64,000 bases of DNA, taken from NCBI RefSeq assembly GCF_964019385.1, contig NC_088643.1:81330699-81394698 (forward strand), given 5' to 3'. The number at the start of each line of letters is the position of its first letter. Positions within the stretch are counted from its first letter, which is position 1. This document shows, piece by piece, positions 6,526 to 63,945 of this stretch. The translations under genes and the position numbers were made by a program. The notes under the pieces were generated by a model that saw only the letters and a list, made by a program, of their open reading frames with translations, was not told the origin of the DNA and made no database searches. This DNA comes from Sycon ciliatum. Taxonomy: Eukaryota > Porifera > Calcarea > Leucosolenida > Sycettidae.

Positions 6526-7185
6526 ACAAAATGATACATCACTTCAATAAATAATCCCTGAGAACACGAGTTCAAAGTACATGTACAGTAATTCTGATTG
6601 AAAGAAGGCTAAAAAAGGTTTCCCATAAACCCCTCTGGAGCAAATTCAAACAAGCTTTAATGAACCCTGGCACAACGTGTGCAGCTCAGTGAAAAATGGC
6701 AGTGCTCATTATGTTTAATAGTACTTGTACCAAGAGTACATACCCCCCCCCCCAAGAGTGTGCAACGCCTGATCCAGCTCTACATAGGGTCTTGGTCGAG
6801 CATGATCGGATCTTTGCGTCATAATACCGTACACATCTGAGGGAAACCTGGGGAGTCGCGGGTACTCTCGGATCAAAAACAACGGTGCCCTGCCTCGAGA
6901 CCGGCCTTGCACTGGTGTGGAGTGTACGCATGACATCAGAAGATCCGATTACGCTCGACCAAGACCTGAGCAGAGTTGGATCAGGAGTTGCACACTCTGG
7001 GGGGTTATGTACTCTTGGTAGCACTGTAGAGTGTACCATATTCTAATCGATAAATCCAGAGCGATGGCATTGAAATCCAACCCCTGATTCACACTGCAGT
7101 GCGAGCACACGTTTGCCTGGATTAAGTGTGCTTTCCACCACGTGTATGCAACACATGTGCATTTATTTGGATGCAATGAAGTAAA

Positions 7186-9414: not shown

Positions 9415-9625
9415 TTTGCCGTCGCGAGACCGACCACCACACTAGCGACTATCCCACACCGCTACCAGAGCTAGAGCTGCGATGACACAGTCAGTGAGAT
9501 CAGTCAAGTCTCAAGACAAGTCTAAAAAAATCTGGCGATCACTGGTTTTGGTGCGCTTCACTCTGCAGATCTGACTGGCATGTACTGAGTCTGTGTCGAC
9601 TGTACAGTCATGTACTCAGTCATAC

Positions 9626-9733
9626 CAAGAGTACATAACCCATAATTTTCTCTGTGCTGCGCTGATGAGTTCAAAAAGAACGAAACAGCATGCTGTCCGC
9701 AGATTGAGTAACCTATATGTAGATCTAATCTTG
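9626..9733 (+). mobile_element. 108-bp CAAGAG-family element carrying a hammerhead ribozyme
   Basis: The element begins CAAGAGTACATAACCC and ends ATCTAATCTTG. It is flanked by perfect 7-bp direct repeats GTCATAC at 9619-9625 and 9734-9740. The terminal inverted similarity is short (CAAGA/TCTTG plus scattered matches). Most of the interior is a type I hammerhead ribozyme (9650-9705). It encodes no protein. It lies about 210 bp upstream of the SMARCC start codon. The 7-bp duplication matches that of the other CAAGAG elements in this window. Confidence 0.7.
9650..9705 (+). ncRNA. Type I hammerhead ribozyme, complete core
   Basis: All core parts are present in order: stem I strand CTGCG (9657-9661), CTGATGA (9662-9668), stem II GTTC-AAAAA-GAAC (9669-9681), GAAA (9682-9685), stem III ACAG-CATG-CTGT (9685-9696), cleavage position C9697 after GU (a GUC triplet), and stem I return CGCAG (9698-9702). 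An extra CTC/GAG pairing outside stem I could enclose an internal loop of the kind that contacts loop II in natural hammerheads. Expected activity is self-cleavage of the RNA after position 9697. A decayed relative with a compensated stem II is at 63902-63945. Confidence 0.88.
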
Positions 9734-9763
9734 GTCATACTCATACAGTCATAGACATAGTAG

Positions 9764-9794
9764 CAAGAGTACATAAACCATTTATGTACTCTTG
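9764..9794. mobile_element. 31-bp palindromic CAAGAG mini-element
   Basis: Arms CAAGAGTACATAAA and TTTATGTACTCTTG (14 bp, perfect) with a 3-base centre, flanked by 7-bp direct repeats ATAGTAG at 9757-9763 and 9795-9801. It is essentially two element ends joined together, and lies 30 bp from the ribozyme element's right end. Confidence 0.7.
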
Positions 9795-10815: not shown

Positions 10816-10853
10816 CAAGCAGTACATAACCCCATGGGGTTATGTACTGCTTG
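10816..10853. mobile_element. 38-bp perfect palindrome with 7-bp target duplication
   Basis: Two perfect 19-bp arms, starting CAAGCAGTACATAACCCCA, with no loop, flanked by 7-bp direct repeats ATGTAAT (10809-10815 and 10854-10860). The ends differ by an inserted GC from the CAAGAGTACATAACC type, but the body matches. Confidence 0.7.
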
Positions 10854-12049: not shown

Positions 12050-12663
12050 ATGCCGGGTTGTGGCGGATGACGGGGAAGCCACATCACCGTGGCTGCAGAT
12101 CATGGCATGGCTGGTGGTAAAAGGCACACCTCACAAGCATGTGTCAGGGATACCAAGAACCGGCCATCCGTAGCAGGCAGCATGAACTACAAATACTATA
12201 TCTACAATATAATTACTCAAGTCTGTGGACAGCAACTGTTTCGCTCTGTTAGAGCTCCTCAGCACAGCTCAGAGGACCGAAGCGCAGCTCTTCGCAATGA
12301 AATACGTTTCCGTCACTGTGAAGCAAAGCATTTTTATAAAGAGCTGCAAACCCCGCCAAGAGTGCTACAATATAATTATATTATTGCCTTTGAGTAGTCT
12401 TCAAGTTTTCATCCTTCCCCGAGAAGGGAACGAACACGTTCGGCAACAACATTGTACTGGTCGGACCGGCCAGGGAGTGCTGTTTTCGGATCCTCCTGCT
12501 GCTTGGTTCTGCTGCCTCGGTGGATGTGTGAGTGTGACATTGACAAAAAAGACTTAGTGTACACTGACGCATGTAGAGTCAAACTCGTATATAAATACCT
12601 CAGCCCATGATAATAACAACTACTCCCGAATAACGACACAACCTTCAGACCTATAAATACCAT
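12050..12663. other. No gene recognised
   Basis: Open frames of 102 and 110 codons at 12089-12397 and 12225-12557 overlap in different frames and show no recognised similarity. Confidence 0.35.
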
Positions 12664-13449: not shown

Positions 13450-13622
13450 TCTGGGCTTTCATGGGGAGGATAATTTTATTGGGGCGTCTCTCACTACGGA
13501 AACTATTAAACCTGAACTGAGCCAAGGTGTTCCGATATTTGAAAATAAACTTGTGGCTGTGCAATGTAACCAGGCTAATTGTCTACGGTACTGCAGTGAT
13601 TCTAGCTTGGCGAATGCGTTAA

Positions 13623-14206
13623 ATGGTCTTGGTCCGAGAAAGCTGAGACGCTCCCTTCCTACCTGAATCCCAATCGAACTCGCGCACTTCCACCGAAACT
13701 GGGTGACTGCGCCCTACTAGATGGGGATTTGTATGCAAAATGTCACTAAAAGCGCCATTTCGTTCTTATAAAAGCACGGATGACTGCGATTGGCCCATAT
13801 TTTGTAGTCTTTTGGACGCTGAGTCGACTGGTTTTGGTCCGAAAAGGCTGCGATGCAGCGTTCCTCCTTTATTCCCAATCGAACATGGTTGAACAAGCGG
13901 TCACGTGCTCCTGGGTGCCCAAATCACCTGGTCACCACGCCAGCAGGCGACAACTTTCACACCAAGGTTCAACTCGAGTGACAGGACTGCACCCAAAAAA
14001 GGTCAAACAGGCTAGTAAGTTGTACCCTGCACTGGGCCTGCAGGCACGGTGACCAGGTGACTGGTGTACGCAGGAGCACGTGACCGCTTGTTCATCCATG
14101 TTCAAGTAGGAAGGGAGCGTCTCAGCTTTCTCGGACCAAGACCATTCGACTCAGCACCCCGAAGACTACAACTGGTGAAATTTTGATTTTTGCCTTAACT
14201 TCCCCT
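13623..14206. mobile_element. TTAA-flanked MITE, left end truncated
   Basis: Same family as 44095-44979 and 60419-61268. The right end CTTCCCCT is followed by TTAA (14207-14210). The left junction keeps TTAA (13619-13622) but about 66 bp of the left terminus are missing, and part of the right arm is also deleted. It interrupts the LINE: the two LINE halves join in frame across a single TTAA. Confidence 0.75.
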
Positions 14207-14555
14207 TTAAGATCTTGCTTTGGTGTGTCGAAGGCAAATCGAAACTTACGCCGTCGCAAGTATGACCTGATGAATCTTGCTTGGAGTTTGTCTAGCTCAC
14301 ACAAATCAGATGCAGGTAGCCGGTACACCCATACCACTACACCATTATTATTTTATTCCAAGCAATACATGGCTGGGGTAGCCAATGACCACTTTGCGTG
14401 GCGATTGCAGGGTTTTTATAGCCAACCATACTCTATGATGGGTCGAACATAGCTCTTGTAAAGGAGCATCATGGCTTTGGGAGTAAGGCGCTGGGCCATG
14501 GAACACAGCAACATGATTCTCTGTTTGAATTTTCCACTCATATCTAGGGGCATGT

Positions 14556-16039: not shown

Positions 16040-16261
16040 ATCGGCTTTTTCATGCAGACCAGCATAAATGGTGAGGTGTATCCTCGTGACACGAGTTTGA
16101 AAGTCAGTCTGGTTTGTGCATGTGCTCAGTACACACCCTATTTTCTTTCTCTGTGACCCACTTGCAAAATAGAGAGAGAATAGTTTTGTGCTTCCATGGT
16201 GGAACGTCGAATGATCTGTACTTTGGCAATACTACTACTAGTATAGGTGGACAGCAGAAAA

Positions 16262-18289
16262 ATGGAATCGTCAGTTAGTGCTGACGAGCTGGAAGCAGTG
16301 GAGTCCAAAAAATCTCAGTCACCATCTAGGGATTCTGGAGTGGATGATGAGGCCAGTGGCAGTAGCTGTAACGATGGAGATAACACGGGTGGAATATTCT
16401 TCAACTTTCTTCTGGGTGGTGCTCTGGGATACAAGCAGATGAACAGGGGTGACAAATTAGCCCTATTCAAAAATGAATTGATCCTTGGATTCATTATTGC
16501 GTTCGCCCAGATCCCAGAGTCGGTTGCTTTCGCATTTCTAGCAGGGCTAGAACCGTCTATTGCCATTCATTCAGCTTGGATAATGGGATTGATCTGTGCA
16601 ATATTTGGTGGACGGCCTGCAATGATTAACGGTGCAACTGGAGCGTTTGCTTCGATCATTGGAACGTTTATTACGCAGCCAGCCGTGTCGGGGCGCTCTG
16701 GTGAGGGAGTTGAGACACTCTTTATTTCTGTGGTACTGGCGGGAGTCCTGATGCTCGTTGCGTTTGCTCTTGACTTGGGCAGATTTGTAAGCGTCATTTC
16801 GTTCCCAATCATGCTGGGTTTCGCCAACGGCTTGGCTATTGTCATTGCTAGAGCTCAGCTGCATCCTTTCTCCTATGACTGCCCTGGAAACTACCGCTGC
16901 CCATTTGTGAATGAATCAGTGGACAACTTTACCATGCCGGATAAATCTCATCACTATGTGGGTGGTGCTGAGCTGGGCTGGATGATTGGAATTGTCCTTG
17001 TCTCAATGATCGTCATGGAATTTGTGCCCAAAATTCCACACAAGGCAGCCAAGTTCGTGCCATCTTCACTGCTGGCAATTCTGGCCGCTATCTTCCTTGA
17101 GTTTGTCGTTGTTCGCAATGCTGGAAGTAAGACCGACACCATTGGTGATGTTGCACCGTTCTCAAAAGACACGGCCTTCCCGATTCCGTTTTTCATCGAC
17201 AAGTCTCGCTACCCGTCTAATGGCACGTTGAATGCTGACAACAGTACAGTGCTTGGCCCGCTCAAGTATGACTTTGACAACCTAGAGGGAAAGGCCGGGC
17301 AAATTGTTTTGCAGGCGTTCTTCCTCGCCATAGTTGGTCTGATTGAGTCCCTGCTGACCCAGGAGATTGTCGATAAGTTCACCAAGACCAAAGGCAACCG
17401 ATCGAGGACCATCGCGGCCATGGGTGCTGGTAACATCATCTCTGGTCTCTTAGGAGGCATGGGTGGAAACGCTATGATCGGTCTGTCGACTATCAACTGC
17501 TTGAACGGTGGCCGTGGGCGCTTAGCACCAATCATTACTGCTTTAGTTGTGATGGTGATGGTCATGGGTGCCTATCCAGTCCTCAACTTTGTTCCAGTTG
17601 CAGCTCTAGTTGGTATCATGCTGGTTGTTGTCGGACATACATTCAAGTGGCAGTCACTGCCGGCAATCTTTGTTGCCTTCTTGCCGGAAAGGTGGCGGCT
17701 GGCGGGAAAACTACAATTCAAGATTGAGCGCACCGACGTGGTCATCGTAGTGCTGGTGACCGCTCTGACCAACGTACCAGGTCTCAACTTGTTCTACTCC
17801 ATTGCTGCTGGCGTTGCCCTGTCAGCCGTGATATATACGTGGAGAAGTGCCCAAGAAATTTCTGTGAAATCTGACCACGTGTCTTCGGAACTCAAAGTTT
17901 ACTTTGTTTCTGGACCATTGTTCTTTGGGAATGCATCCTCCTTCCCTGACCACTTTGATCCTGAGGGAGACCCAGCCACTGTGGAAGCCCATTTTTCAGA
18001 CACAACTCTTTTTGATTCTGCAGCACTGAAAACCCTCAACACAATCACCAAGCAGTACAGCAAGGCGGAGAAGTCCTTCATTATACGACACCTAGACCCT
18101 GTGAGTGTACGCAGTGTGTCCAAAGCATCACGTCTTCTCCACTACATTGAACTGGCTGCCGGGGAGGACATACCGATGGGTGTCAGCGGCGAGGAAGATC
18201 CATCGCCACAGCCGCTTGTTACCAACGACGACGATCCTGTGGTGCGCAAGCGTTCAAAGGACGTTGTTAATAATGAATCATGTGTGTAG
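16262..18289 (+). CDS. SulP/SLC26-type anion transporter, paralogue A (intronless)
   Basis: A predicted plasma-membrane anion transporter (sulfate, bicarbonate or chloride class; substrate unknown) of 675 residues. The start is the ATG at 16262 in a good context (AAAAATGG); an in-frame GTG 15 bp upstream is not a likely animal start. An acidic Ser-rich tail (about 1-45) is followed by the TM1 motif IPESVAFAFLAG (84-95), GGRPAMINGATGA (116-128), further hydrophobic helices, a lumenal/extracellular loop with N-glycosylation sequons, and a C-terminal STAS domain (about 541-631: YFVSGPLFFGNASSF, then FDSAALKTL). The sequence style is that of bacterial SulP proteins rather than vertebrate SLC26, and there are no introns. 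That could mean old transfer or retroposition. Paralogue B lies 10.5 kb downstream; E86 here is L there. Confidence 0.92.
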   Translation: MESSVSADELEAVESKKSQSPSRDSGVDDEASGSSCNDGDNTGGIFFNFLLGGALGYKQMNRGDKLALFKNELILGFIIAFAQIPESVAFAFLAGLEPSIAIHSAWIMGLICAIFGGRPAMINGATGAFASIIGTFITQPAVSGRSGEGVETLFISVVLAGVLMLVAFALDLGRFVSVISFPIMLGFANGLAIVIARAQLHPFSYDCPGNYRCPFVNESVDNFTMPDKSHHYVGGAELGWMIGIVLVSMIVMEFVPKIPHKAAKFVPSSLLAILAAIFLEFVVVRNAGSKTDTIGDVAPFSKDTAFPIPFFIDKSRYPSNGTLNADNSTVLGPLKYDFDNLEGKAGQIVLQAFFLAIVGLIESLLTQEIVDKFTKTKGNRSRTIAAMGAGNIISGLLGGMGGNAMIGLSTINCLNGGRGRLAPIITALVVMVMVMGAYPVLNFVPVAALVGIMLVVVGHTFKWQSLPAIFVAFLPERWRLAGKLQFKIERTDVVIVVLVTALTNVPGLNLFYSIAAGVALSAVIYTWRSAQEISVKSDHVSSELKVYFVSGPLFFGNASSFPDHFDPEGDPATVEAHFSDTTLFDSAALKTLNTITKQYSKAEKSFIIRHLDPVSVRSVSKASRLLHYIELAAGEDIPMGVSGEEDPSPQPLVTNDDDPVVRKRSKDVVNNESCV

Positions 18290-19359: not shown

Positions 19360-19945
19360 TAGGGCTGAAACAATTACACCGATAACTCGCATATCGATCG
19401 TTTTAAAAGAGTGCAATCGATAATCGTTAGTGTTCAACTTCAAAACGAGTGCTAACGATTTTTTATGCATGCATATCAGCAAGAGTACATGTACTCTTGA
19501 TATCAGTGACAGTATTCTAGCCCTTGCACTCCATCCGATAGTGGATACGAGTACAATCATGTACCGTAGTTTCAAGTGCAGTCAAATTGATTTGTGTCTT
19601 TGAAAGAGATCGGGAGAGAAGACTTTGCCTTTTCGGTTCATTCGTGGGAGAAGTCGGAGATGAGAACAGTTGCCAGAGGGTGATGACAAGATTCTTCGCT
19701 CTAATTGTAGAAACAACATGAAGCTCTCTACTTGAATACTAGTAGCTCATGTTGATAAAACCAGCCAGATATCTACTGATGTCAACAGTGCGGTGCCACA
19801 AATTTCTAACGTAGCAAAGGCATCATGGAATTTCTTCATAAACTGGTGTTCGATAGAGCTGACAAGAAAAGATAAATCCAATAATATCGATCATTAATGA
19901 TATTGGTTGATCATTAGGAGTTATTGAATGATCGTTTCAGCCCTA
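19360..19945. mobile_element. hAT-type MITE, 586 bp, 8-bp target duplication
   Basis: Ends TAGGGCTGAAACAATTACAC and ...ATCGTTTCAGCCCTA, with perfect 8-bp direct repeats GGATTTTC at 19352-19359 and 19946-19953. The undisrupted site is present once in copy 2 of the duplication (about 29774-29781), so it inserted after the duplication. The ends resemble those of the BED-containing hAT element at 51935-53029 (TAGGGCCGAAACGATT). No coding capacity. Confidence 0.88.
19480..19499. mobile_element. 20-bp palindromic CAAGAG mini-element
   Basis: The whole element is the palindrome CAAGAGTACATGTACTCTTG, flanked by 7-bp direct repeats ATATCAG (19473-19479, 19500-19506). It is nested inside the hAT MITE 19360-19945. 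This is the smallest member of the family here. Confidence 0.65.
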
Positions 19946-21487: not shown

Positions 21488-21775
21488 CAAGAGTACATAA
21501 CCCCCCAGAGTGTGCAACGCCGATCCAGCTCTGTGTAGGGTCTTGGTCGAGCGGAATCGGATCTTCTGATGTCATGCGTACACTTCACACCAGCGCAAGG
21601 CCGGTCTCGAGGCAGGGCACCATTGTTTTTGATCCAAGAGTACTCGTACCCGCGACTCCCCGGGTTCCCCTCAGATGTGTACGGTATTATGACGCAAAGA
21701 TCCGATTCCGCTCGACCAAGACCCTATGCAGAGCTGGATCAGGCGTTGCACACTCTGGGGGGTTATGTACTCTTG
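21488..21775. mobile_element. CAAGAG-family element, 288 bp, 7-bp target duplication
   Basis: Starts CAAGAGTACATAACCCCCCA and ends GGGGGGTTATGTACTCTTG, with arms of about 75 bp. Perfect 7-bp direct repeats GCAGTAG lie at 21481-21487 and 21776-21782. It is the longest family member with a clean duplication, and an inverted homologue is at 6731-7017. No protein. Confidence 0.85.
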
Positions 21776-26585: not shown

Positions 26586-26817
26586 GTTGGCTTTTTCATC
26601 CAAACTACATGTAGCATGACACGCGTTTGAAAGTCAGTCTGGTTTGTGCTCAGCACACACCCTATTTTCTTTTTCTGTGACCCAATCCTCAGCCAATACA
26701 AGGGTAAACCAGCACTTGTAAAATAGAGTTTTAGTTTTGTGCTTCCATAGTCGAACGTCGAATGATCTGTACTGACTACTGTGGCAATACTAATACTGGT
26801 AGGTGGACAGCAGAAAA

Positions 26818-28845
26818 ATGGAATCGTCAGTTAGTGCTGACGAGCTGGAAGCAGTGGAGTCCAAAAAGTCTCAGTCATCATCTAGGGATTCTGGAGTGGA
26901 TGATGAGGCCAGTGGCAGTAGCTGCAACGATGGAGATAACACGGGTGGAATATTCTTCAACTTTCTTCTGGGTGATGCTCTGGGATACAAGCAGATGAAC
27001 AGGGGTGACAAATTAGCCCTATTCAAAAATGAATTGATCCTTGGATTCATTATTGCGTTCGCCCAGATCCCACTGTCGGTTGCTTACGCATTTCTAGCAG
27101 GGCTAGAACCATCCATTGCCATTCATACGGCTTGGATAATAGGATTGATCTGTGCAATATTTGGTGGACGGCCTGCAATGATTAACGGTGCGACTGGAGG
27201 GTTTTCTTCAATCATTGGAACATTTATTACGCAGCCAACCGTGTCAGGGCGCTCTGGTGAGGGAGTTGAGACACTCTTTATTTCTGTGGTACTGGCGGGA
27301 GTCCTGATGCTCGTTGCATTTGCTCTTGACTTGGGAAGATTTCTAAGCATCATTTCGTTCCCAATCATGCTGGGTTTCGCCAACGGCTTGGCTATTGTCA
27401 TTGCTAGAGCTCAGCTGCATCCTTTCTCCTATGACTGCCCTGGAAACTACCGCTGCCCATTTGTGAATGAATCAGTGGACAACTTTACCATGCCGGATAA
27501 ATCCATTCACTATGTGGCTGGTGCCGAGCTGGGCTGGATGATTGGAATTGTCCTTGTCTCAATGATCGTCATGGAGTTTGTACCGAAAATTCCGCATAAG
27601 GCAGCCAAGATAGTGCCATCTTCACTGCTGGCGATTCTGGCCGCTGTCTTCCTTGAGTTTGTCGTTGTTCGCAATGCTGGAAGTAAGACCGACACCATTG
27701 GTGATGTTGCACCGTTCTCAAAGGACACCGCCTTCCCTATTCCGTTTTTCATCGACAAGTCTCGCTACCCGTCTAATGGCACGCTGAATGCTGACAACAG
27801 TACTGTGCTTGGCCCACTCAAATATGACTTGGACAAGCTGCAGGGAAAGGCCGGGCGAATTATTTTGCAGGCATTCTTCCTCGCCGTAGTTGGTCTGATT
27901 GAGTCCTTGCTGACCCAGGAGATTGTCGACAAGCTCACCAAGACCAAAGGCAACCGATCGAGGACCATCGCGGCCATGGGTGCTGGTAACATCGTCTCTG
28001 GTCTCTTAGGAGGCATGGGTGGAAACGCTGTGATCGGTCTGTCGACTATCAACTCCTTGAACGGGGGTCGTGGGCGCCTAGCACCGATCATTACTGCTTT
28101 AGTTGTGATGGTGATGGTCATGGGTGGCTATCCAGTCCTCAACTTTGTTCCAGTTTCAGCTCTAGTCGGTATCATGCTGGTTGTTGCCGCACATACATTC
28201 AAGTGGCAGTCACTGCCGGCGATCTTTGTTGCCTTCTTGCCGGAAAGGTGGCGACTGGCGGGTAAACTACAATTCAAGATTGAGCGCACCGACGTGGTCA
28301 TCGTAGTGCTGGTGACCGCTCTGACCAACGTACCAGGTTTCAACTTGTTCTACTCCATTGCTGCTGGCGTTGCCCTGTCAGCCGTGATATATACGTGGAG
28401 AAGTGCCCAAGAAATTTCTGTGAAATCTGACCACGTGTCTTCGGAACTCAAAGTTTACTTTGTTTCTGGACCATTGTTCTTTGGGAATGCATCCTCCTTC
28501 CCTGACCACTTTGATCCTGAGGGAGACCCAGCCACTGTGGAAGCCCATTTTTCAGACACAACTCTTTTCGATTCTGCAGCACTTAAAACCCTCAACACAA
28601 TCACCAAGCAGTACAGCAAGGCGGAGAAGTCCTTCATTATACGACACCTAGACCCTGTGAGTGTCCGCAGTGTGTCCAAAGCATCACGTCTTCTCCACTA
28701 CATTGAACTGGCTGCCGGGGAGGACATACCGATGGGTGTCAGCGGCGAAGAAGATCCATCGCCGCAGCCGCTTGTTACCAACGACGACGATCCTGTGGTG
28801 CGCAAGCGTTCAAATGATGTTGTTAATAATGAATCAGGTGTGTAG
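26818..28845 (+). CDS. SulP/SLC26-type anion transporter, paralogue B (intronless)
   Basis: 675 residues, start ATG at 26818, same architecture as paralogue A: acidic tail, TM1 motif IPLSVAYAFLAG (84-95), GGRPAMINGATGG (116-128) and a STAS domain (541-631). About 95% identical to A. Nearly all differences lie in the membrane domain, and I count none from about residue 509 to 665, which covers the STAS domain. Notable swaps: E86 to L and F89 to Y in the TM1 motif that lines the substrate site in this fold, and charge changes in one loop (DFDNLEGKAGQ to DLDKLQGKAGR). Both paralogues look intact, so both may be expressed, perhaps with different transport properties. No introns. Confidence 0.92.
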   Translation: MESSVSADELEAVESKKSQSSSRDSGVDDEASGSSCNDGDNTGGIFFNFLLGDALGYKQMNRGDKLALFKNELILGFIIAFAQIPLSVAYAFLAGLEPSIAIHTAWIIGLICAIFGGRPAMINGATGGFSSIIGTFITQPTVSGRSGEGVETLFISVVLAGVLMLVAFALDLGRFLSIISFPIMLGFANGLAIVIARAQLHPFSYDCPGNYRCPFVNESVDNFTMPDKSIHYVAGAELGWMIGIVLVSMIVMEFVPKIPHKAAKIVPSSLLAILAAVFLEFVVVRNAGSKTDTIGDVAPFSKDTAFPIPFFIDKSRYPSNGTLNADNSTVLGPLKYDLDKLQGKAGRIILQAFFLAVVGLIESLLTQEIVDKLTKTKGNRSRTIAAMGAGNIVSGLLGGMGGNAVIGLSTINSLNGGRGRLAPIITALVVMVMVMGGYPVLNFVPVSALVGIMLVVAAHTFKWQSLPAIFVAFLPERWRLAGKLQFKIERTDVVIVVLVTALTNVPGFNLFYSIAAGVALSAVIYTWRSAQEISVKSDHVSSELKVYFVSGPLFFGNASSFPDHFDPEGDPATVEAHFSDTTLFDSAALKTLNTITKQYSKAEKSFIIRHLDPVSVRSVSKASRLLHYIELAAGEDIPMGVSGEEDPSPQPLVTNDDDPVVRKRSNDVVNNESGV

Positions 28846-35400: not shown

Positions 35401-35426
35401 GCTCGAGCAGGGTTGACCGGATCCAA

Positions 35427-35609
35427 TGTAACAGGTTTAATCAAACTTGAAAAGTAAGAGGCCTGGTTGAGCGCGCCTCGACCAGTTATATGCAAAATGT
35501 GATAGTATACATGTGGCAATGGCGCCAATGAAGGTGCTAATAGACAGGCGTAAGACGCATGAGGTGCGAGGGAGTGTAAAGTTATAGAGAACAGGGGAAA
35601 ACTGTTACA
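35427..35609 (-). repeat. 3' LTR (183 bp)
   Basis: The left copy on this map is the 3' LTR of the minus-strand element. It is identical to 40329-40511 on base-by-base reading. Confidence 0.96.
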
Positions 35610-35610
35610 T

Positions 35611-35622
35611 CATCCCCCTCCT
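35611..35622 (-). promoter_or_regulatory. Polypurine tract
   Basis: In minus sense AGGAGGGGGATG lies one base from the 3' LTR. It is the expected plus-strand DNA primer of the element. Confidence 0.85.
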
Positions 35623-35807
35623 ATGGAGAGGAAGGAGCTTATAACCCAAATGCTCAAGTGGAATAGAGTACAATAAGCGCAAACACGTGCGAGACGAAAA
35701 AGGCTTCGCACTGAAGTAACACAATAAGACGACTGAAACTCCATGCAAATAAAGTGTAATAAGCTCAACAAATGTGTAAGGTGAAACTAGAAGTTCAACT
35801 GCAAAAC

Positions 35808-38800
35808 TCAGCGGGCAGAAGCCAAGGTTTTGTACTTCTGAAGTGGAACAATGTCATTACCAGATTCATCCAACAAATAATGTTCAGGCTCCCAAGTGGC
35901 ATCAGAGTAGCCTTGCCACTTGACTAGGTACTGAAGCTGATTCTGCCGGCGGCGGTGACTGAGAATGTTCTCCACCACATAGCGGGCATGACCATCAAGG
36001 TCCGTGATAGGCGGAGGCGTAGGCTGTCTCCTATTAGGAATAGCGTTCTTCTCGTAGGCACGGAGTGCCGACACATTAAATACCGGGTGACAGCGGCTGG
36101 TATGAGGCAACTTGAGCTTGTAGGCATTCGGGCCGACCACATGGGTTATAGGAAAGGGGCCAAACCACTTGGGGCGTAATTTATGGGATGGTCGGTCCCG
36201 AGCTTCAGGAGTCAGGAGGAAATCCCGGTAGACCATTACCAAATCTCCCACCTTCAGCTTTCCCTCGACCCTTGTCCGATCTGCATAGAAGGCCTGACGA
36301 GCTTGAGCTGCCACTAGCGCATCTTGTGAGATCTTGACCGCGTCTTGTCTTGCTTGCAACCAATCAGCTGAATCTCTGCCTCCCTGAATAGGGTTGAGGA
36401 AGTCGGGTGGTGCTCTGGGATTTAGACCGTAATTTAAGAAGAACGGTGTGTTTCCTGTAGATGATTGAGTAGCGCTGTTGATAGAAAACTCACAGAGAGG
36501 TAGGAGCATATCCCAGTTATCTTGTTTATGATTTACAAAAGCCCTCAGCACATCCTCTACTATTCTGTTTACTCGTTCAGTTAGGCCATCTGTCTGAGGG
36601 TGATTGGCAGTACTAAATGCTAGTTTCGTTCCTAAGCGATCAAACAATTCCTGAAAAAATGCTGCCGTAAATCTTGGATCACGATCACATACAATACTAG
36701 AACTCAAACCATGAAGTCGAAATACATGTTGAATATACAGATCAGCACTTCCTTTAGCGTCAATAGTAGAGGAAGTAGGTGCTAAATGTACACACTTTGT
36801 CAAGCGGTCTACAAATACATATATAGCATCATGACCTGTGTCGGTCCTAGGCAAACCCATGATAAAATCCATCGAGATATCCGCCCACGGCTGACTGGGC
36901 ACTGGTAAATTCTGCAAGAGACCAGTTTTTAGCTGGCCACCTTTAACTCGTTGGCAGACGTCACATGACTTGACAAACGCCTTTACATCCAGTCCCATTC
37001 TGGGCCAATAGAAATATCTAGCGAGCCTGAAGTAGGTGCGATCTCGACCGGGATGCCCCGCAGTCACACAGTCATGGTATTCTTGAAGCAGGGCGAGTCG
37101 GAGTTTGCTACTCTTTGGAATGCATAACCTGTTCTGTGGTGAAGATCTGAGATAAAGATAACCGGGTGTTTCATTTAGAAGGTAACGGTCGTGCAGATTG
37201 TCATGGCTTGAATTTTTCAGTCTCCTGATAATGGGAGCAAGATCCTTGTCGCACTTGTAACCGCTGACAATTAACTGCGCTAAGTCTGGATTAATCTCTA
37301 GGGTATGCTCTATGGCATTCAACTGAATGTTAGGAGGATAGGATGACCCGCCTATTTCAGAATCACTGAACAGATCTGGACGGCGTGAAAGCGGGTCGGC
37401 AATGTTTTTCTTTCCTGGTTTGTGAAAGACCGTAAAGTCATAGTCAGCTAAAAACTCTACCCATCTTGCCTCACGCTTGGTGAGAGTCGGTTTGGTTCGT
37501 AAATAGACAACACCCATATTATCAGTCATCAGGTCAAAGTGGCGGAATAGATAGATTCTCCAGCACTTTAATGCAAATACCACAGCCAACGTTTCCCTCT
37601 CGGCCGCAGTATAGTTGCGTTCTGCAGCTGACAGTTTCCGACTGCAATAGGCTACGGGATGCAAATCCATATCTTCTCCCTGCTGCAGGAGCACACCCGC
37701 CACGGCAAAGTCACTTGCGTCAGTTTCTACCGTGAAGCTTTTCTCAACATCGGCCAGTTGCAACACTGGCGCCTCGAGTAATGCTGATTTTAGAGACTCG
37801 AATGCCTTCTGTCTAGCAGCGCTCCATTCAAAGCGTGAATTTTTTCCGGTGATTTCTTCTAATGGACGAGAGATGGTCGAGTGTCGATCTATGAACCTTC
37901 GGAAATAGTTTGCAAAGCCAAGAAACTTCCTCACATCAGTTACTGACGACGGAGTTGGCCATGTTTCCACAGCACTTATCTTCTTGGGATCAGGGGAAAT
38001 TGATGTGCCGTTGATTTTATGCCCCAAGAAGAGAACTTCTCTCACGCCGAATTCGCATTTAGACTGTTTGCAATACAGCTCACTATTTCTAAGTGTTTCT
38101 AGAACTGTTTGAAGATGATGCTGATGATCTTCCCAGGTCTTGCTGAAAACTAGAATGTCATCCAAGAATACTACAACGAATTTTCGGAGATGCGGTTGCA
38201 GAATAGAGTTCATGAGTGACTGAAAAGTGGCCGGGGCATTAGTCAGCCCGAATCCCATGACTCTAAATTGGAAGTGGCCGAACGGCGTATTAATGGCCGT
38301 CTTAGAAACATCCGAGTCTTGAATTCTGATTTGATTGTACCCCGACCGCAAGTCCAACTTGGAGAAATATGCACTGCCCTGGATCGTGTCGAATAAGTCA
38401 TCAATATTAGGAAGACAAGCTTTGTTTTTGATCGTAATTCTATTCAATTCTCGCCAATCGCACACCATTCTCAGAGTACCATCCGACTTTTTCACAAAAA
38501 ACACAGGTGCACCGTATGGCGACTTACTTGGCTCAATGAATCCCTTCTCAAGTAATTCTGACAGCTGTGACTGGAGCTCGTCCATCTCTGGTTTCGGCAG
38601 GCGGTAGGCGGGTCGAGACGGTGGTCTGGCTCCATCTTCTATCTGGATTTCATGGTCGACTGGTCTCTTCGGTGGAAGCTCATTCGGCAGCTCGTCTGGA
38701 AATAAATCCTGGTACCTCTTGAGCAGGTTCTGGATGTCTTGTTGCTCTGATTCCTGGAGTTGTGGCCCGGAACGATTCTCCTCGTTTGCAGCAGTGACCC

Positions 38801-39485
38801 ATGCAAGAAACCCCTCAGCTCCACTCCTCAGGGCATGACGAGCTTGTCGGCCACTGATAAACATGCTTTCCACAGATGGCCGGTCGGCTGTCGGCGGGTT
38901 AGCTGAAGGCAATTTGGCAACAAAGGGCTCACCGTCCAACTGAACTTCGTTCGTACGGAAGTTGATGCTGGGGTTGTTCCTTGTAAGCCACGGCTTGCCA
39001 AGAATAGCGTCGTAGCGAGTCAGGGGGTACACAGTAAAGTGCTGTTCCTCACTGAAGCCCCCGACTGTCACCCTTAGCGTGCGTGTGGAAATCTGCGGGA
39101 CCTCGCTGGTCGAGCCGTCCGCCAATGTTACGCTCAGCACTGCTGAGCTTGCATCCGTGTCAAGATGATGCTTTCGAACAAAACTGTCTGCAATGAAGTC
39201 ATGCGTCGAACCGGAATCTATCAGCATCACTGCACGGCGACCGCCGATCTTTCCCTGTATGCGCAGTAGGTCGTGTTCAGGTTCATTGCCGACGCTGACG
39301 TTGCTGACATGACACCTTTCTGCAACGGGACAATTTCCTACAGCTATGGGTGTCTCCGGCTCCGTAGGTTCCTGGAGAGCAACGTCTTCAACCTCCAGAG
39401 CTCCGAACCGGTTAGCGACTGGTACCGGCGTGGGTGCTTGGGTCGTCGCCAGTAAGCGCACCCCCTTTCTTACTGGCGACCAGCG
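35808..39485 (-). CDS. pol: Pol: protease, RT, RNase H, integrase, chromodomain
   Basis: Polyprotein expressed by -1 frameshift from gag; there is no ATG at its start. Residues are counted from 39461. Aspartic protease with DSGS (82-85). RT with LDLRSGYNQI (369-378) and the catalytic FLDD (432-435). RNase H D581, E623, D647. Integrase zinc site H796, H803, C833, C836, and catalytic D865, D926, E962 with DD(35)E spacing. The C-terminal chromodomain (about 1159-1210) has YLVKWQGYSDATWEP. The frame is open for about 1,225 codons and all catalytic residues are present. The chromodomain is expected to direct integration to particular chromatin. The stop lies about 200 bp before the 3' LTR; no env. 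Confidence 0.96.
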   Translation of the reverse strand, partial: RWSPVRKGVRLLATTQAPTPVPVANRFGALEVEDVALQEPTEPETPIAVGNCPVAERCHVSNVSVGNEPEHDLLRIQGKIGGRRAVMLIDSGSTHDFIADSFVRKHHLDTDASSAVLSVTLADGSTSEVPQISTRTLRVTVGGFSEEQHFTVYPLTRYDAILGKPWLTRNNPSINFRTNEVQLDGEPFVAKLPSANPPTADRPSVESMFISGRQARHALRSGAEGFLAWVTAANEENRSGPQLQESEQQDIQNLLKRYQDLFPDELPNELPPKRPVDHEIQIEDGARPPSRPAYRLPKPEMDELQSQLSELLEKGFIEPSKSPYGAPVFFVKKSDGTLRMVCDWRELNRITIKNKACLPNIDDLFDTIQGSAYFSKLDLRSGYNQIRIQDSDVSKTAINTPFGHFQFRVMGFGLTNAPATFQSLMNSILQPHLRKFVVVFLDDILVFSKTWEDHQHHLQTVLETLRNSELYCKQSKCEFGVREVLFLGHKINGTSISPDPKKISAVETWPTPSSVTDVRKFLGFANYFRRFIDRHSTISRPLEEITGKNSRFEWSAARQKAFESLKSALLEAPVLQLADVEKSFTVETDASDFAVAGVLLQQGEDMDLHPVAYCSRKLSAAERNYTAAERETLAVVFALKCWRIYLFRHFDLMTDNMGVVYLRTKPTLTKREARWVEFLADYDFTVFHKPGKKNIADPLSRRPDLFSDSEIGGSSYPPNIQLNAIEHTLEINPDLAQLIVSGYKCDKDLAPIIRRLKNSSHDNLHDRYLLNETPGYLYLRSSPQNRLCIPKSSKLRLALLQEYHDCVTAGHPGRDRTYFRLARYFYWPRMGLDVKAFVKSCDVCQRVKGGQLKTGLLQNLPVPSQPWADISMDFIMGLPRTDTGHDAIYVFVDRLTKCVHLAPTSSTIDAKGSADLYIQHVFRLHGLSSSIVCDRDPRFTAAFFQELFDRLGTKLAFSTANHPQTDGLTERVNRIVEDVLRAFVNHKQDNWDMLLPLCEFSINSATQSSTGNTPFFLNYGLNPRAPPDFLNPIQGGRDSADWLQARQDAVKISQDALVAAQARQAFYADRTRVEGKLKVGDLVMVYRDFLLTPEARDRPSHKLRPKWFGPFPITHVVGPNAYKLKLPHTSRCHPVFNVSALRAYEKNAIPNRRQPTPPPITDLDGHARYVVENILSHRRRQNQLQYLVKWQGYSDATWEPEHYLLDESGNDIVPLQKYKTLASAR

Positions 39486-39491
39486 TTTGGG
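39445..39491 (-). promoter_or_regulatory. -1 ribosomal frameshift signal at the gag-pol junction
   Basis: Minus sense: the slippery heptamer CCCAAAC (39491-39485), in the correct phase C-CCA-AAC of gag. Then a 4-nt spacer, then a perfect 12-bp hairpin: GTCGCCAGTAAG (39480-39469), 12-nt loop, CTTACTGGCGAC (39456-39445). The gag stop TAA (39472-39470) lies inside the first stem strand. The pol frame is -1 to gag and opens just upstream, so a slip here makes Gag-Pol. The form is canonical X-XXY-YYZ plus stem. Confidence 0.88.
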
Positions 39492-40315
39492 TAGCGCTGT
39501 CCACCCTCAGTACAGTCTTTAGCGAGGTGGCCTGGCTTCCTGCAAGCAAAGCAGTGTCCCATTGCTCGCAGTTGGACACGCTCTTGGTCCGTCAGCTTGC
39601 GGAGGCCCTGAGTCTGACCACGGAAGCTGGGCACGGAACGCGACTCTCTACTGGCTGGTGGCCCCGACGCCGGTGGCCCTGATGACTGCTCCACGGTGTT
39701 TGCTGCCATGACAGCTTGCTCCAGGGTACGTGGATGCTCACGCATGACCTGTCGCTGGATGTGCGGCACTAGACCCCTGACGAACAGCAGCGCTCTGGTG
39801 TGGTGGTCGATTTCCGGCACTTGCAGGCTGAGGCGAGTGAAAGCAGCAATGTATGCGTCCAGCGACCCGCGCTGCGCTGCGGAAATTAGTCCCATACGCG
39901 ATGTTTCCTCGTTGTGCCGTGGTCCGTACACATCGCCAAGTGTCGCTTTCAGAGCAGGCCAGTCGGAAAACACTTGGTTAGCTTCCAATGCCGCTATCAA
40001 CCAAAGACGAGCGTTTCCAGTCAAAAATCCTGCCGCGTAGTCGACCCTCTGTGCCGCATTTGGGAGCGCCAACGACCGTAGGGCCATGTCCATTGCAAAC
40101 GTCCATTCTTTGAATGTAGCGGAATCTCCTCCAAACACAGGCGGCTCTTTCGTAAGGCGGGGTGTTGGCTCCCACGGTTCCGAGTTCGGATGTATCGTTC
40201 GGTTTCCTTGGCTAACGCGCTGAGCGGTCTTGATATCGTTTATCAGCCGAACGACGAGTACGAGGAGCGTAAGCAGAGCGACCAGAACACCTGCCAAAAG
40301 CAGAGTAGGAACCAT
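39470..40315 (-). CDS. gag: Gag with N-terminal hydrophobic segment and CCHC knuckle
   Basis: 281 residues. Its ATG (40313-40315) lies inside the tRNA primer-binding site. Residues 4-23 are almost purely hydrophobic (LLLAGVLVALLTLLVLVV), like a membrane anchor, which is unusual for gypsy Gag. A retrotransposon-gag (capsid-like) region spans about 55-215. The nucleocapsid knuckle C255-x2-C258-x4-H263-x4-C268 (CFACRKPGHLAKDC) is near the end. The stop is embedded in the frameshift hairpin. Role: particle assembly and RNA packaging. Confidence 0.92.
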   Translation of the reverse strand: MVPTLLLAGVLVALLTLLVLVVRLINDIKTAQRVSQGNRTIHPNSEPWEPTPRLTKEPPVFGGDSATFKEWTFAMDMALRSLALPNAAQRVDYAAGFLTGNARLWLIAALEANQVFSDWPALKATLGDVYGPRHNEETSRMGLISAAQRGSLDAYIAAFTRLSLQVPEIDHHTRALLFVRGLVPHIQRQVMREHPRTLEQAVMAANTVEQSSGPPASGPPASRESRSVPSFRGQTQGLRKLTDQERVQLRAMGHCFACRKPGHLAKDCTEGGQRYPNAGRQ

Positions 40316-40327
40316 CCTCTGCTACCA
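40310..40327 (-). promoter_or_regulatory. Primer-binding site, initiator tRNA-Met
   Basis: In minus sense TGGTAGCAGAGGATGGTT, one base after the 5' LTR, is complementary to the 18 nt at the 3' end of animal initiator tRNA-Met (AACCATCCTCTGCTACCA, from memory). Confidence 0.9.
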
Positions 40328-40328
40328 G

Positions 40329-40511
40329 TGTAACAGGTTTAATCAAACTTGAAAAGTAAGAGGCCTGGTTGAGCGCGCCTCGACCAGTTATATGCAAAAT
40401 GTGATAGTATACATGTGGCAATGGCGCCAATGAAGGTGCTAATAGACAGGCGTAAGACGCATGAGGTGCGAGGGAGTGTAAAGTTATAGAGAACAGGGGA
40501 AAACTGTTACA
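40329..40511 (-). repeat. 5' LTR (183 bp)
   Basis: The right copy on this map is the upstream LTR of the minus-strand element and should hold its promoter. No obvious TATA box was singled out. Confidence 0.96.
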
Positions 40512-40516
40512 TCCAA

Positions 40517-41854: not shown

Positions 41855-41886
41855 CAGGGAGTCGTCAAATATTTGTCGACTCCCTG
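41855..41886. mobile_element. 32-bp CAGGGAG mini-element with 8-bp duplication
   Basis: Arms CAGGGAGTCG and CGACTCCCTG with a 12-base centre, flanked by perfect 8-bp direct repeats GATAATGC (41847-41854, 41887-41894). The 8-bp duplication and CAG ends suggest the hAT superfamily. At 32 bp it is little more than two joined ends. Confidence 0.75.
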
Positions 41887-44009: not shown

Positions 44010-45480
44010 TGTGATCGTATAACCTCTATAGGATAGTAAAGGGACCGTTGTCCCTCCTCCTCACCAGGGACCTGAGGGTTGTAGCCAGAGTTAAAGGGGA
44101 AGTTAAGGCAAAAATTAAAATTTCACCAGTTGTAGTCTTCGGGATGCTGAGTCGAATGGTCTTGGTCCGAGAAAGCTGAGACGCTCCCTTCCTACTTGAA
44201 TCCCAATCGAACTCGCGCACTTCCACCGAAACTGGGTGACTGTGCCCTACTATAATAATATAATTATTATTATTGTAGATGGGGATTTGTATGCAAAATG
44301 TCACTAAAAGCGCCATTTCGTTCTTATAAAAGCACGGATGACCGCGATTGGCCCATAAAAAATAAGAGCCATATGTTGTAGTCTTTTGGACGCTGAGTCG
44401 ACTGGTTTTGGTCCGAAAAGGCTGCGATGCAGCGTTCCTCCTATATTCTCAATCGAACATGGTTGAACAAGTGGTCACGTGCTCCTGGGTGCCCAAAATC
44501 CCCCAATCACCTGGTCACCACGCCAGCATGCAGGCGACAACTTTCACACCAAGGTTCAATTCGAGTGACAGGACTGCACCCAAAAAAGGTCAAACAGGCT
44601 AGTAAGTTGTACCCTGCAGGCACGGTGACCAGGTGACTGGCGTACGCAGGAGCACGTGACCACTTGTTCAACCGTGTTCGATTGGGAATAAAGGAGGAAC
44701 GCTGCATCACCAGTCGACTCAGCGTCCAAAAGACTACAACATATGGGCCAATCGCGGTCATCCGTGCTTTTATAAGAACGAAATGGCGCTTTTAGTGACA
44801 TTTTGCATACACATCCCCATCTAGTAGGGCGCAGTCACCTAGTTTCGGTGGAAGTGCGCGAGTTCGATTGGGATTCAAGTAGGAAGGGAGCGTCTCAGCT
44901 TCCTCGGACCACGACCATTCGACTCAGCACCCCGAAGACTACAACTGGTGAAATTTTAATTTTTGCCTTAACTTCCCCTTTAACCAGGGCGATTGCGGTG
45001 TGCCTTGACCAGCTAGCTGGCCCAAACGCAGCCGCCCAGACTAGCAATGCCATGATATGCGAGCATGCACAAATCAAAATGGTCCTGCCGCTGATCCCTA
45101 GACCCATGGCCATGGTCGGGGGAGGTAGGCCCAATTCACCAGCACGCTGCTCCGGCTTCCCGCTGTATTGTCATGTCTCCTCTTTGGTTCTGTCTTCCCA
45201 TTCCGTTCTCTGCTGGACTGTATTTCAGAATTAAAAAAATAAAAAGCCCTGCCCCAAGGGCGACTGGAACGAACAGGCCGCGAACAAAAGTTGAAAACCC
45301 AATCTGTAGATCTCCCAATCCGTAGATACCGTACCAGCCTACTCCACTAGTGCCACACCATCCAGCAACAGTTGGAAGACTTTCGCACCCGACCACATCC
45401 GGGCAGCCAGAATGAGAGGCAGGCCAAGGAATTTGATGGTTTGGCATTGTGCTATGGCTGCCAGCTCCTACTCGTCTACC
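44010..45480 (+). repeat. Dispersed repeat R1, copy interrupted by a TTAA MITE
   Basis: 44010-44094 and 44980-45055 are continuous in the uninterrupted copy at 20492. A further insertion of about 150 bp (about 45080-45245), ending in an A-rich tail AATTAAAAAAATAAAAA, separates off 45246-45360. That part may be a short retroposon. Confidence 0.8.
44095..44979. mobile_element. TTAA-flanked MITE, 885 bp, about 375-bp inverted arms
   Basis: Ends AGGGGAAGTTAAGGCAAAAA and its mirror, flanked by TTAA (44091-44094, 44980-44983). The empty site is seen in R1 at 20492. Nearly the whole element is a giant hairpin around a centre of about 90 bp with CACCCAAAAAAGGTCAAAC. TTAA targets are typical of piggyBac, but the ends do not begin CCC, so superfamily is unassigned. 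A 44229-44281 stretch has an extra AT-rich insert. Confidence 0.88.
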
Positions 45481-49499: not shown

Positions 49500-49557
49500 C
49501 AGGGAGTAGTACAATACCATACAGACCCAATCGTCACCGTCACTGTACTACTCCCTG
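49500..49557. mobile_element. 58-bp CAGGGAG mini-element with 8-bp duplication
   Basis: Arms CAGGGAGTAGTAC and GTACTACTCCCTG, flanked by perfect 8-bp repeats GTTTGTAC (49492-49499, 49558-49565). A related sequence at 54066-54090 (TAATTTCGTGCCGTTGGTTTGTAC) shows the site without the insert. Confidence 0.82.
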
Positions 49558-55566: not shown

Positions 55567-58500
55567 ATGCCAGGTGAATATATAATACTCAGTCTGCTAG
55601 TCGCTGTTTGTCTCCTTTCCGGACTCCACTGCGGCACCGAGGCATATCCCACGGGGGACTTGCAAGCTCGCTACGAGGCAACGAACAGCCGCTCGGCTGC
55701 AGCCCACTACATGAAAGAAGGTCAGAGCAAGACTGCATACAGTCAGGAGCGAACCAATCAGCTCATCAAGCGCATAGAAAAGGCCAATGCATCAGGAGCC
55801 AAGGTGTTGGGTGGACTCACCTGTGTGGCATGCGAGGTGGCTGCCACAACCCTGCAGGGTCTCATCCAAACAAATGCTTCTGAGGAGTTGATTGTGAAGG
55901 TAGCCCTTGACATCTGTATTGGCCTGGACGAAGCCGACAGCAGAGTGTGCCATGGCATCATTCCCGAGTTCAAGGACGAGTTTATTGGCGTCGTTGCTGA
56001 AGTGGGCCTTGGTCCCAAAGAACTGTGCGGTGCTTTGCTGGGCAATAGCTGCGCACAGTTCCATAACCCGTGGAACGAGAACTGGACCATACCGCTTCTC
56101 AGTACGCCAAAACCAAAGTATGTGCCACCCCAGCCGCCAAAGAGCGGCTCGCCGGAAACGGTAATCTTGCACCTGTCGGACATTCACACGGACAGCAAGT
56201 ACGCGCCCGGCTCTCTGAACACGTGCAATGAGCCGCTGTGCTGCCGTGCTTGGTTTGGGCCCGGCACTGCCGGAGACTACGGGGCGTTTAACTGCGACAG
56301 CCCGCGCCTGCTCGTCGAGAATCTGATGGAGCACGTCAGCAAGACACACACTGATATCAAGTACATTATCTTCACGGGCGACGTACCCGCTCACAACGTC
56401 TGGAACCAGAGCCGCAGCGACATTGTGGCAGCAATCGACTTGCTGAGCAGCCTCTTCACGAAGTACTTTCCGAACGTCAAAGTCTACCCAGCCGTCGGAA
56501 ATCACGAAAGCGCTCCGGTCAATAGTTTTCCACCGCCGTACGTCACTGGACATAACAATCACAAGTGGCTCCTGGATACGCTGGCAAAGGACTGGGCAAG
56601 ATGGCTTCCAGAGTCAACTCAGGAAACTATCCGGCTAGGTAAGCACCTTCCTCCTTGGCTTAGTATCCACGCTCGTCCAAAAAGAGGATACTAGTACAGT
56701 AGTATGCTGAGCTAGCTGGCATGGCCGGGTGCTTAATTTGTCTGGGTACCAGCAGCCTGAACAATCAGGCGCGTAGCACCGGGATTTCAGGTAGTCCGGC
56801 GAGAACGCCTACTCGACCATAGATGAATATTATAGCAGTGCCTGGTTTTCAATGTCCGGACCTGCTAGTGCGTGTGCCAACAGTTTCAAAAGAATTTGCC
56901 AAGCCTCCCAGTAAGACCGATTTGGTCCTCCCACTGAGCGACCGTCTGGATAGCGGAACACCCGCAAATGCTGAAGAGAACTGATGTGGGGAGGGCCGCA
57001 TGTAAACGAATTGCACTCATACTGTCATGGGCCACATGCAAGTCATAATGTGTTGCTTGTATTTTGTGACTGCATTTCTGTTGTGAAGAACGTCGTCTAT
57101 GAGGAACTCCTGCACAATGGCGTTATTAGAGAGGTTCCGCATAACGTAATTACGTTAGTAAAAAACGTAGTCGATCTACGGAAAGTCTTACGTTAACTGC
57201 ATGCGCATCTGGGTTCCGCCATACGGAGTTTTCAAATCACGTAGCTGCCCTTGGCAACTCCGAATGCGGCAGTGTACGACCAGATCGACATGGGGAGAGA
57301 GTCATAAATTTGTACCCCAATCCACTTACGGACCAGCTACGTTATCAGAGCCCTATCTACGTACTCTCCGTAGACAACTTTCCGTAAGTGGAGTGTAAAC
57401 TCGCGAATTCATGGGTTTTTCCCGCCCACTAACGTAAAGTTGTTCAACTTTACGTAGTGCAGAACCTCTCTATTTTACTTCGAAGTAATTTTACTTTGAA
57501 GTAATAATTATAGTATCCGCAGTCAACTGTATGTGTAGTTGATTCATTTGTGTTGCTGTGTACTGTCGCATACAGGTGGTTTCTACTCGGTGGAACTAGA
57601 GACGGGCCTTCGCTTGTTGTCACTGAATGTGAACTACTGCAATCCGCTGAATTGGTGGCTTCTCATAAATAACACAGACCCTGTGGGCCAGTTGGCATGG
57701 ATGAGAGATCAGCTACAAGATGCCGAGGACAAGAATGAGAAGGTACAGCATGCACTTTGGTCGTGTAGGATGAAAACTAAGAACGAATTTGGCAGGTATT
57801 GAGAGACATGTACAGTCCAGGTCCAGCATGGATGCCAAGGAATGCCGGGTATCGCTAGTGTATGCCTGCTCTTCTATTGAACTGATAGGTTGCTTTTGTC
57901 ACACCACTTCGATGCACATGCACCCAATTTAACACCGGTTGCAATTCTAACAGATGTGTGTGCTCATATTGTGCTCAGGTTTATATCATCGGACACATCC
58001 CACCACGAGGTGGCTGCCTTCATGCATGGAGTTGGACGTATCATAAAATCGTGAACAGGTACTCCAACACAATCCGCAGCCACTTTTTTGGCCACACCCA
58101 TACTGATGAGGTGAGAAAATTAGAGAATGAGAGCTCTAGCACTCTTGTGAGCCCACTGAAGCGTCTTGTTGAACAAAACCTTGTCGGAACAAGTACACAC
58201 CCGATTGGGAAGACCTAAGTCCTGCCCGGTTCTCCTGAAACTGCACTGTGGATCACAGTCATTCGCTTTGTTTCCCTGCCTCTTGTCAAATTGTAACTGG
58301 TATGTGGTGAAAACTACGTCACGGAGCTTTTCGAAAACGGTAACATTTTTTAGCCACATCTCTATGTAGGTGTGGCTTCAACCTCGATACGGAAGCTAAG
58401 ACACACGCAACAACCCACAGCACTGCAAATGCTAGATAGCAGCTAGGCAGCTTGGAATAGAAGAACCTTATGAGTAATGAATTGAAGCCAGCATTCGGAT

Positions 58501-60353: not shown

Positions 60354-60418
60354 TTAACCCTTTATGGACCAATTAAATTAGCTAGCTGGTCAAGGCACAC
60401 CGCAATCGCCCTGGTTAA

Positions 60419-61268: not shown

Positions 61269-61272
61269 TTAA

Positions 61273-61427
61273 CGGACCAGCTACGTTATCAGAGCCCTAT
61301 CTACGTACTCTCCGTAGACAACTTTCCGTAAGTGGAGTGCAAACTCGCGAATTCACGGGTTTTTCCCGCCCACTAACGTAAAGTTGCTCAACTATTACTT
61401 TACGTAGTGCGGAACCTCTCTATTACT
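61273..61427. mobile_element. Right half of the GAGAGGTTCCGC MITE
   Basis: CGGACCAGCTACGTTATCAG to GTGCGGAACCTCTC matches 57326-57470 closely (one extra TTAC). The left half is replaced by the TTAA MITE. Confidence 0.8.
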
Positions 61428-61720: not shown

Positions 61721-61793
61721 CAGGGAGCCCTACACATGGTATCAAGAGTATAACTTACTTATATATTCTTGATGGTATGCGTAGAGCTCCCTG
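61721..61793. mobile_element. 73-bp CAGGGAG mini-element, nearly perfect 8-bp duplication
   Basis: Ends CAGGGAGCCCTAC and GTAGAGCTCCCTG; flanks GGTGGGAC and GGTGGGCC (7 of 8). It has itself been entered by the 29-bp CAAGAG element. Confidence 0.65.
61743..61771. mobile_element. 29-bp CAAGAG mini-element nested in a CAGGGAG element
   Basis: Starts CAAGAGTATAA and ends TATATTCTTG, with perfect 7-bp repeats ATGGTAT at 61736-61742 and 61772-61778. Confidence 0.6.
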
Positions 61794-63901: not shown

Positions 63902-63945
63902 CTGCGCTGACAAGTCCACAAAGGACGAAACAGTTCTGTTCGCAG
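63902..63945 (+). ncRNA. Decayed type I hammerhead ribozyme
   Basis: Homologue of 9650-9705: stem I CTGCG/CGCAG, stem II GTCC-ACAAA-GGAC, GAAA, stem III ACAG-TT-CTGT. The core reads CTGACAA instead of CTGANGA, so the catalytic G8 is A, which should abolish or strongly reduce cleavage. Stem II differs from the other copy at paired positions while pairing is kept. Confidence 0.7.

Follow-up and report, generated by a model that had tools for sequence, protein, structure and literature searches.

We found that the 108-bp segment at positions 9626 to 9733 of the analyzed DNA, a 64,000-nucleotide stretch of the Sycon ciliatum genome that we call the window, is very probably made of two nested insertions, with a piece of a retrozyme lodged inside an ultra-short DNA transposon. 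This nested pair is one known kind of element within another known kind. It is not a ribozyme-bodied DNA transposon of a new type, as the first-pass annotation had proposed, and the claimed new class is thereby removed. What is added is a retrozyme family that is abundant in this calcareous sponge. The 16-base end of its hammerhead is matched exactly at 4,422 places in the genome, compared with 0 for the reversed control.

The segment begins with CAAGAGTACATAACCC and finishes with TCTTG, and it lies between perfect 7-bp GTCATAC repeats at positions 9619 to 9625 and 9734 to 9740. The CAAGAG/TCTTG ends and the flanking repeats are exact, and the ends proved to be those of a real, non-retro element with a target duplication of fixed length. 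Among the 53 CAAGA...TCTTG pairs found 18 to 400 bp apart in the window, exact 7-bp flanks were present at 5 (elements of 20, 29, 31, 108, and 288 bp), while approximately 400 random 5-mer termini used as a control gave such flanks in 2 of 11,756 pairs. Exact flanks of 5, 6, 8, 9, 10, or 11 bp were found at none of the same 53 pairs, and flanks of 4 bp at one. In 20 other 10-kb stretches of the same genome, taken at round coordinates, the 7-bp signature was present again in 4 of 124 pairs (elements of 21, 282, 282, and 320 bp), and the count of exact 5-, 6-, 8-, or 9-bp flanks was 0 of 124. When up to two mismatches are allowed, the window contains the sequence CAAGAGTACATAA itself at 11 places, where 1.8 would be expected. 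The ten 7-bp duplications compared by eye, six from the window and four from elsewhere, have T at position 2 in nine cases and A at position 6 in nine cases, and GTCATAC has both. The CAAGAGTACATAA inverted-repeat family therefore consists of DNA transposons that insert with a 7-bp stagger.

The other members of this family in the window vary widely in length. They include a 31-bp CAAGAGTACATAA copy at 9764 to 9794 (duplication ATAGTAG), a 20-bp perfect palindrome, CAAGAGTACATGTACTCTTG, at 19480 to 19499 (ATATCAG), a 29-bp copy at 61743 to 61771 (ATGGTAT), a 38-bp perfect palindrome with the variant ends CAAGCAGTACATAACCCC at 10816 to 10853 (ATGTAAT), and a 288-bp member with long inverted repeats at 21488 to 21775 (GCAGTAG). 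A 287-bp relative that starts at 6731 has no exact duplication. The copies of 20 to 38 bp, to which one at L067:1775-1795 can be added, consist of hardly anything besides their two ends, but the 7-bp duplications around them are perfect. Such short forms may themselves be mobile, or they may have arisen by deletion within longer copies. A second ultra-short family, with CAGGGAGT ends and exact 8-bp duplications, is present at 41855 to 41886, 49500 to 49557, and L066:1826-1863 (32, 58, and 38 bp, respectively), and we presume it to be hAT-like from its end and duplication length. Also in the window are long inverted-repeat elements at 60414 to 61273, 44090 to 45018, and 13557 to 14210, which are related to one another and have arms of up to 400 nt with 96% complementarity. 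The 28 prokaryotic loci that share a 16-mer of the transposon end were taken as chance matches and were not used.

In the 108-bp segment, what remains of the outer transposon lies on either side of the hammerhead. The left arm with the loop (CAAGAGTACATAACCCATA, 9626 to 9644, plus strand) has first 16 bases identical to the ends of the 6731-7017 and 21488-21775 members and matches the 31-bp neighbor at 9764 by BLAST. The right arm (TAACCTATATGTAGATCTAATCTTG, 9709 to 9733, plus strand) pairs with the left one only as CAAGA and TACATA, through its own TCTTG and TATGTA, and the stretch between these motifs is diverged, with GATCTAA where the 31-bp neighbor has C.

Between the arms, on the plus strand, is a type I hammerhead that we call HHR1. 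With its outer stem I (CTC at 9650 to 9652 and GAG at 9706 to 9708), it spans positions 9650 to 9708, and cleavage is predicted after position 9697. The first-pass annotation had placed a complete type I hammerhead with a GTC triplet at 9650 to 9705, and the core, the stems, an Rfam match, and shuffled controls all bear this out. The core consists of CTGATGA (9662 to 9668), GAA, and the GTC ending at 9697. Stems I (9657 to 9661 with 9698 to 9702), II (9669 to 9681), and III (9685 to 9696) have 5, 4, and 5 pairs, respectively, by the descriptor. The hammerhead pattern had one match, against 0.03 expected, and stems as long as those of HHR1 were found in 0 of 4156 dinucleotide shuffles searched on both strands, although looser matches were found on 17 shuffled strands; a chance hammerhead was ruled out on the former count. 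The covariance model RF02275 (Hammerhead_HH9) of Rfam matched HHR1 with 29.7 bits (E value of 2.1e-5 in 601 bp). This is below the gathering score of 52 for that model, which is why a scan of the whole window at gathering thresholds listed no hammerhead. Comparison of the three hammerheads found in the window showed compensatory changes at three pairs, with 48 of 48 cells paired, a result as high in 19 of 500 shuffles. Scans of viral contigs for the ribozyme found none.

The hammerhead was found not to be the body of the element but a separate insertion. The 64 bases at 9645 to 9708 (plus strand) are identical at all 64 positions to positions 165 to 228 of a 228-bp retrozyme unit from another locus, L053, and thus represent a 5′-truncated copy. 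They are flanked by TAACCCATA at 9636 to 9644 and TAACCTATA at 9709 to 9717, the inner target duplication, with one mismatch in nine. No other internal direct repeat was found in the 108-bp segment with thresholds of at least 6 exact bases, or at least 8 with one mismatch, at least 20 apart. This 9-bp repeat adjoins both ends of the part that is common to other hammerheads, and it was equaled by 47 of 200,000 flank shuffles (57 of 50,000 with slop allowed). When the insert was taken out by script together with one copy of the repeat, 35 bp remained, within the 20- to 38-bp size range of the elements in the window, and the point of insertion is the loop of the outer near-palindrome. Inverted-repeat arms at the three insertion sites in the window are 6, 7, and 5, the first site being palindromic anyway, and inverted repeats equal to them occur at approximately 8, 5, and 19%, respectively, of 2000 random positions each. 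A preference of the retrozyme for hairpins was dropped as too weak.

A search of the genome with the whole element gave 42 matches, with 40 of 491 candidates scored. The transposon end (query positions 1 to 24) was present in none of the 41 matches other than the window itself, and 37 of the 41 begin where the insert does, at query position 27. The left transposon end together with the ribozyme within 30 bases was found once in the genome (538 Mb in 313 contigs), by an exact pattern that misses diverged ends. A multicopy composite was rejected on these two results. The first-pass annotation had suggested a search for further copies with the same ends and had named, as the observation that would count against its proposal, genomic copies that extend past those ends without duplications; the other examined ribozyme copies do run into different sequence, without the CAAGAG and CTTG ends. 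No site without the element was seen, and the joined flanks matched only this locus, as expected for a single insertion, which confirms nothing.

From this anatomy, a DNA transposon of about 35 bp with CAAGAG ends would have entered at GTCATAC, duplicating 7 bp. As the other genomic copies also suggest, a reverse-transcribed piece of a non-LTR retrozyme would then have inserted into the near-palindrome at its loop, with duplication of TAACCYATA. This piece would comprise only the last 64 bases of the unit, which amount to one whole hammerhead.

Other accounts of the segment have to be weighed against this order of events. If the hammerhead were the proper body of a DNA transposon family that carried it between sites, the real inverted ends, the perfect 7-bp duplication, and the complete hammerhead between them would all be explained. 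However, the combination has a single genomic copy by the exact pattern, its ends are absent from all 41 other scored matches, an inner duplication is present, and no hammerhead is present in the remaining outer-family members of the window, as judged with a model built from the three window copies (one weak match, at 55584 to 55644). We regard this account as extremely improbable. The fallback in the first-pass annotation, in which 7-bp flanks lie by accident around a retrozyme relic and the outer transposon does not exist, was correct as to the retrozyme piece but not as to the flanks. Accidental flanks are rejected by the 7-bp signature, at 5 of 53 pairs compared with 2 of 11,756 in the control and again at 4 of 124 elsewhere, and by the agreement of the left flank with the family ends over its first 16 bases, which leaves this account with next to no likelihood.

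It could also be that the retrozyme piece entered the transposon elsewhere and that a transposase then moved the pair here, the ribozyme having hitchhiked at least once. A perfect outer 7-bp duplication around a mismatched inner 9-bp one would fit an outer insertion more recent than the inner one, but one mismatch in nine is a weak indication and a single copy gives no sign of a move; we consider this history very unlikely. The same mismatch stands somewhat against the nested insertions that we favor, given that the insert does not differ from a unit at another locus, as does the divergence of the right arm of the outer transposon.

The retrozyme family was characterized at 30 fetched loci, where it consists of 228-bp units that contain one type I hammerhead each and are often in tandem; the copy in the window amounts to 0.28 of a unit. 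These loci were picked by similarity to the window element, which favors arrays that end in TTGAGTAA, that is, with both TTGAG and TAA, and they include the window itself and near-duplicate loci. Target duplications of 5 to 17 bp were found in 26 of 29 testable arrays and none in the remaining 3, with 6 arrays that reach the edge of their locus left out of the count. Of these 26 duplications, 22 were equaled in no more than 2 of 300 shuffles, and 4 were weak (23 to 75 of 300). The 5′ ends of the 26 arrays are scattered over unit positions 3 to 223, giving lengths of 64 to 966 bp, and two further arrays fill the whole of their 3,068-bp locus with more than 13 units. In 4 of the 26 arrays, with L044 and L045 probably one duplicated locus, the 5′ end falls at the cleavage site (positions 217 to 223), an excess too small to claim. 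When folded as a circle, the unit reached -74.0, compared with -62.3 (standard deviation of 4.7) for shuffled sequences, 4 of 200 of which were as stable.

The 3′ ends of the arrays are far less scattered. At the 30 selected loci, 33 of 35 arrays finish at TTGAG, 11 nt beyond the GUC cleavage site (13 nt if the TA that also follows TTGAG within arrays is counted), and the remaining 2 extend beyond the DNA that was fetched. Five of the arrays at these loci are not the search hit (two of them being one near-duplicate pair), and all five finish at TTGAG. A less selected list was drawn from the hammerheads that are exact up to the cleavage site, of which there are 1,939 in the genome: 36 of the 43 that lie in the stretch spanned by the listed matches to the hammerhead end continue exactly to TTGAG and 7 do not, and among the 28 that are the last hammerhead of their array, 21 reach TTGAG exactly and 7 do not. 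Mutation within the 11 bases may explain the latter 7, as may an end at another place. Taken together, the counts show a strong preference for this 3′ end, short of proof that it is invariant.

The bases that follow this end also show a preference. TA is found after the hammerhead end in 3,867 of the 4,422 exact matches, a count that includes internal junctions. When the first 100 listed exact matches were split by eye, TA was present at 58 of 71 array ends and absent at 13, and it was present at all 29 internal junctions, although the split would go wrong for an array end that adjoins an inexact unit. In 25 of the 26 duplications TAA follows TTGAG, but the query also reads TTGAGTAA, and selection accounts for part of this figure. 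As UA follows TTGAG in the tandem RNA, just as TA does in most of the target DNA, priming by a two-base match is suggested.

A 3′ end that lies past the cleavage site implies that the copied RNA was continuous there, as a circle or an uncut multimer would be and a cut linear monomer would not. The junctions thus suggest templates that were uncut, either circular or multimeric. They bear on an open question, that of the template, with ends that a cleaved linear monomer does not give in the 33 selected arrays and in at least 21 of 28 less selected ones. Target-primed reverse transcription, as in non-LTR elements, is marked by duplications of variable length, a 3′ end that is preferred, and 5′ ends that are scattered; all three, along with the tandem units, are read directly from the DNA here. 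In the process that we envisage, tandem transcripts would cut themselves at GUC and the monomers would be circularized. Machinery of the LINE or Penelope type would then reverse-transcribe the RNA from a nicked target, starting at the preferred position, 11 nt downstream of the cut, where TA in the target could pair with the UA after TTGAG. Copying would halt at scattered points, leaving pieces from 0.28 of a unit upward.

A more specific version is that the junctions record a circular RNA template, with a TA-primed start, a run around the circle, and an arbitrary stop, so that the arrays would be frozen rolling-circle products. We hold this version as possible but a little short of probable, having lowered our estimate because 7 of the 28 less selected array ends may lie elsewhere. 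If it is true, the HHR1 copy would be a product stopped after 64 nt. For metazoan retrozymes, PMC7229834 proposes that circular RNAs serve as templates and that the enzymes are those of LINE or Penelope elements.

Two diverged retrozyme copies are found elsewhere in the window, each with its own flanking repeats. The first-pass annotation had noted neither their hammerheads nor the inner repeat around HHR1. The second copy, at 12202 to 12378 on the minus strand, has a 149-bp insert (12216 to 12364) between exact 14-bp repeats, TAATTATATTGTAG, and its hammerhead, at about 12212 to 12277, is 80% identical to HHR1 over 88 nt. Compared with the 228-bp unit, this copy matches in the hammerhead part and weakly in the first 15 bases, and the rest does not match. 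The third copy, at 63863 to 63956 on the plus strand, is flanked by AGTACTA (or TACTA) and contains a hammerhead at 63892 to 63955 that is 86% identical to HHR1 over 66 nt. The conserved G8 of its core is changed (CTGACAA), and judging from this change the third hammerhead is probably inactive. Both hammerheads also scored below the Rfam gathering thresholds. Three related hammerheads with separate flanking repeats pointed to a family that moves independently. A model built from the three recovered all of them plus the weak match at 55584 to 55644 (15.8 bits, E value of 0.077). With an E value cutoff of 0.01, the same model found no further family member in 200 kb of other stretches, where one other hammerhead was the only one seen, so that three copies in one window are above the average. 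That other hammerhead, at L068:8940-8983 on the minus strand, resembles the minimal type found in Penelope elements, its stem III being a palindrome with no loop, ACAGCTGT.

The window contains other large features. In an LTR element at 35423 to 40513, which we take to be Ty3/gypsy-like, gag- and pol-like frames lie between 189-bp repeats that share 99% identity. Two very similar frames of 680 amino acids, at 16247 to 18289 and 26803 to 28845, lie approximately 10.5 kb apart and presumably resemble SLC26 sulfate transporters.

In the literature, of which a small share of the relevant papers was covered, we recognized no ribozyme within a DNA transposon and no retrozyme or hammerhead ribozyme from a sponge, which does not show that they are absent from print. 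The outer element has the terminal inverted repeats and, in several copies, the fixed duplication length of MITEs. The family is also like MITEs in having several copies and no room for a gene, and it differs in that its 20- to 38-bp members hardly exceed two ends.

The inner element has the properties of a retrozyme, namely, a type I hammerhead (with an Rfam score below gathering), 228-bp tandem units, and duplications of 5 to 17 bp (9 bp with one mismatch for the copy in the window). Metazoan non-LTR retrozymes, as described in the available parts of PMC7229834 and PMC7761336, consist of tandem units of about 150 to 450 bp, with target duplications of more than 4 bp when present. Such retrozymes are further characterized by the lack of an LTR, a primer-binding site, and a polypurine tract, and by self-cleavage and circular RNA. 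The sponge family is like them in its type I hammerhead, its tandem units of a few hundred base pairs, its many copies, and its duplications of more than 4 bp. The copy in the window, in contrast, is a single 64-bp piece, the hammerhead alone, and sits within a different transposon. A calcareous sponge is the host here, and the words sponge and Porifera are absent from the main text of PMC7229834. In the available parts of the same two papers, we met no counterpart to a preferred 3′ end lying 11 nt downstream of the cut or to the preference for TA. The minimal hammerheads of Penelope-like elements and Terminons, as far as the available part of PMC7761336 describes them, share the type I topology and occur in animal genomes as well. 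However, HHR1 has a 5-bp stem III (9685 to 9696) and an outer stem I with an internal loop, which set it apart from that minimal type, where stem III is absent or minimal.
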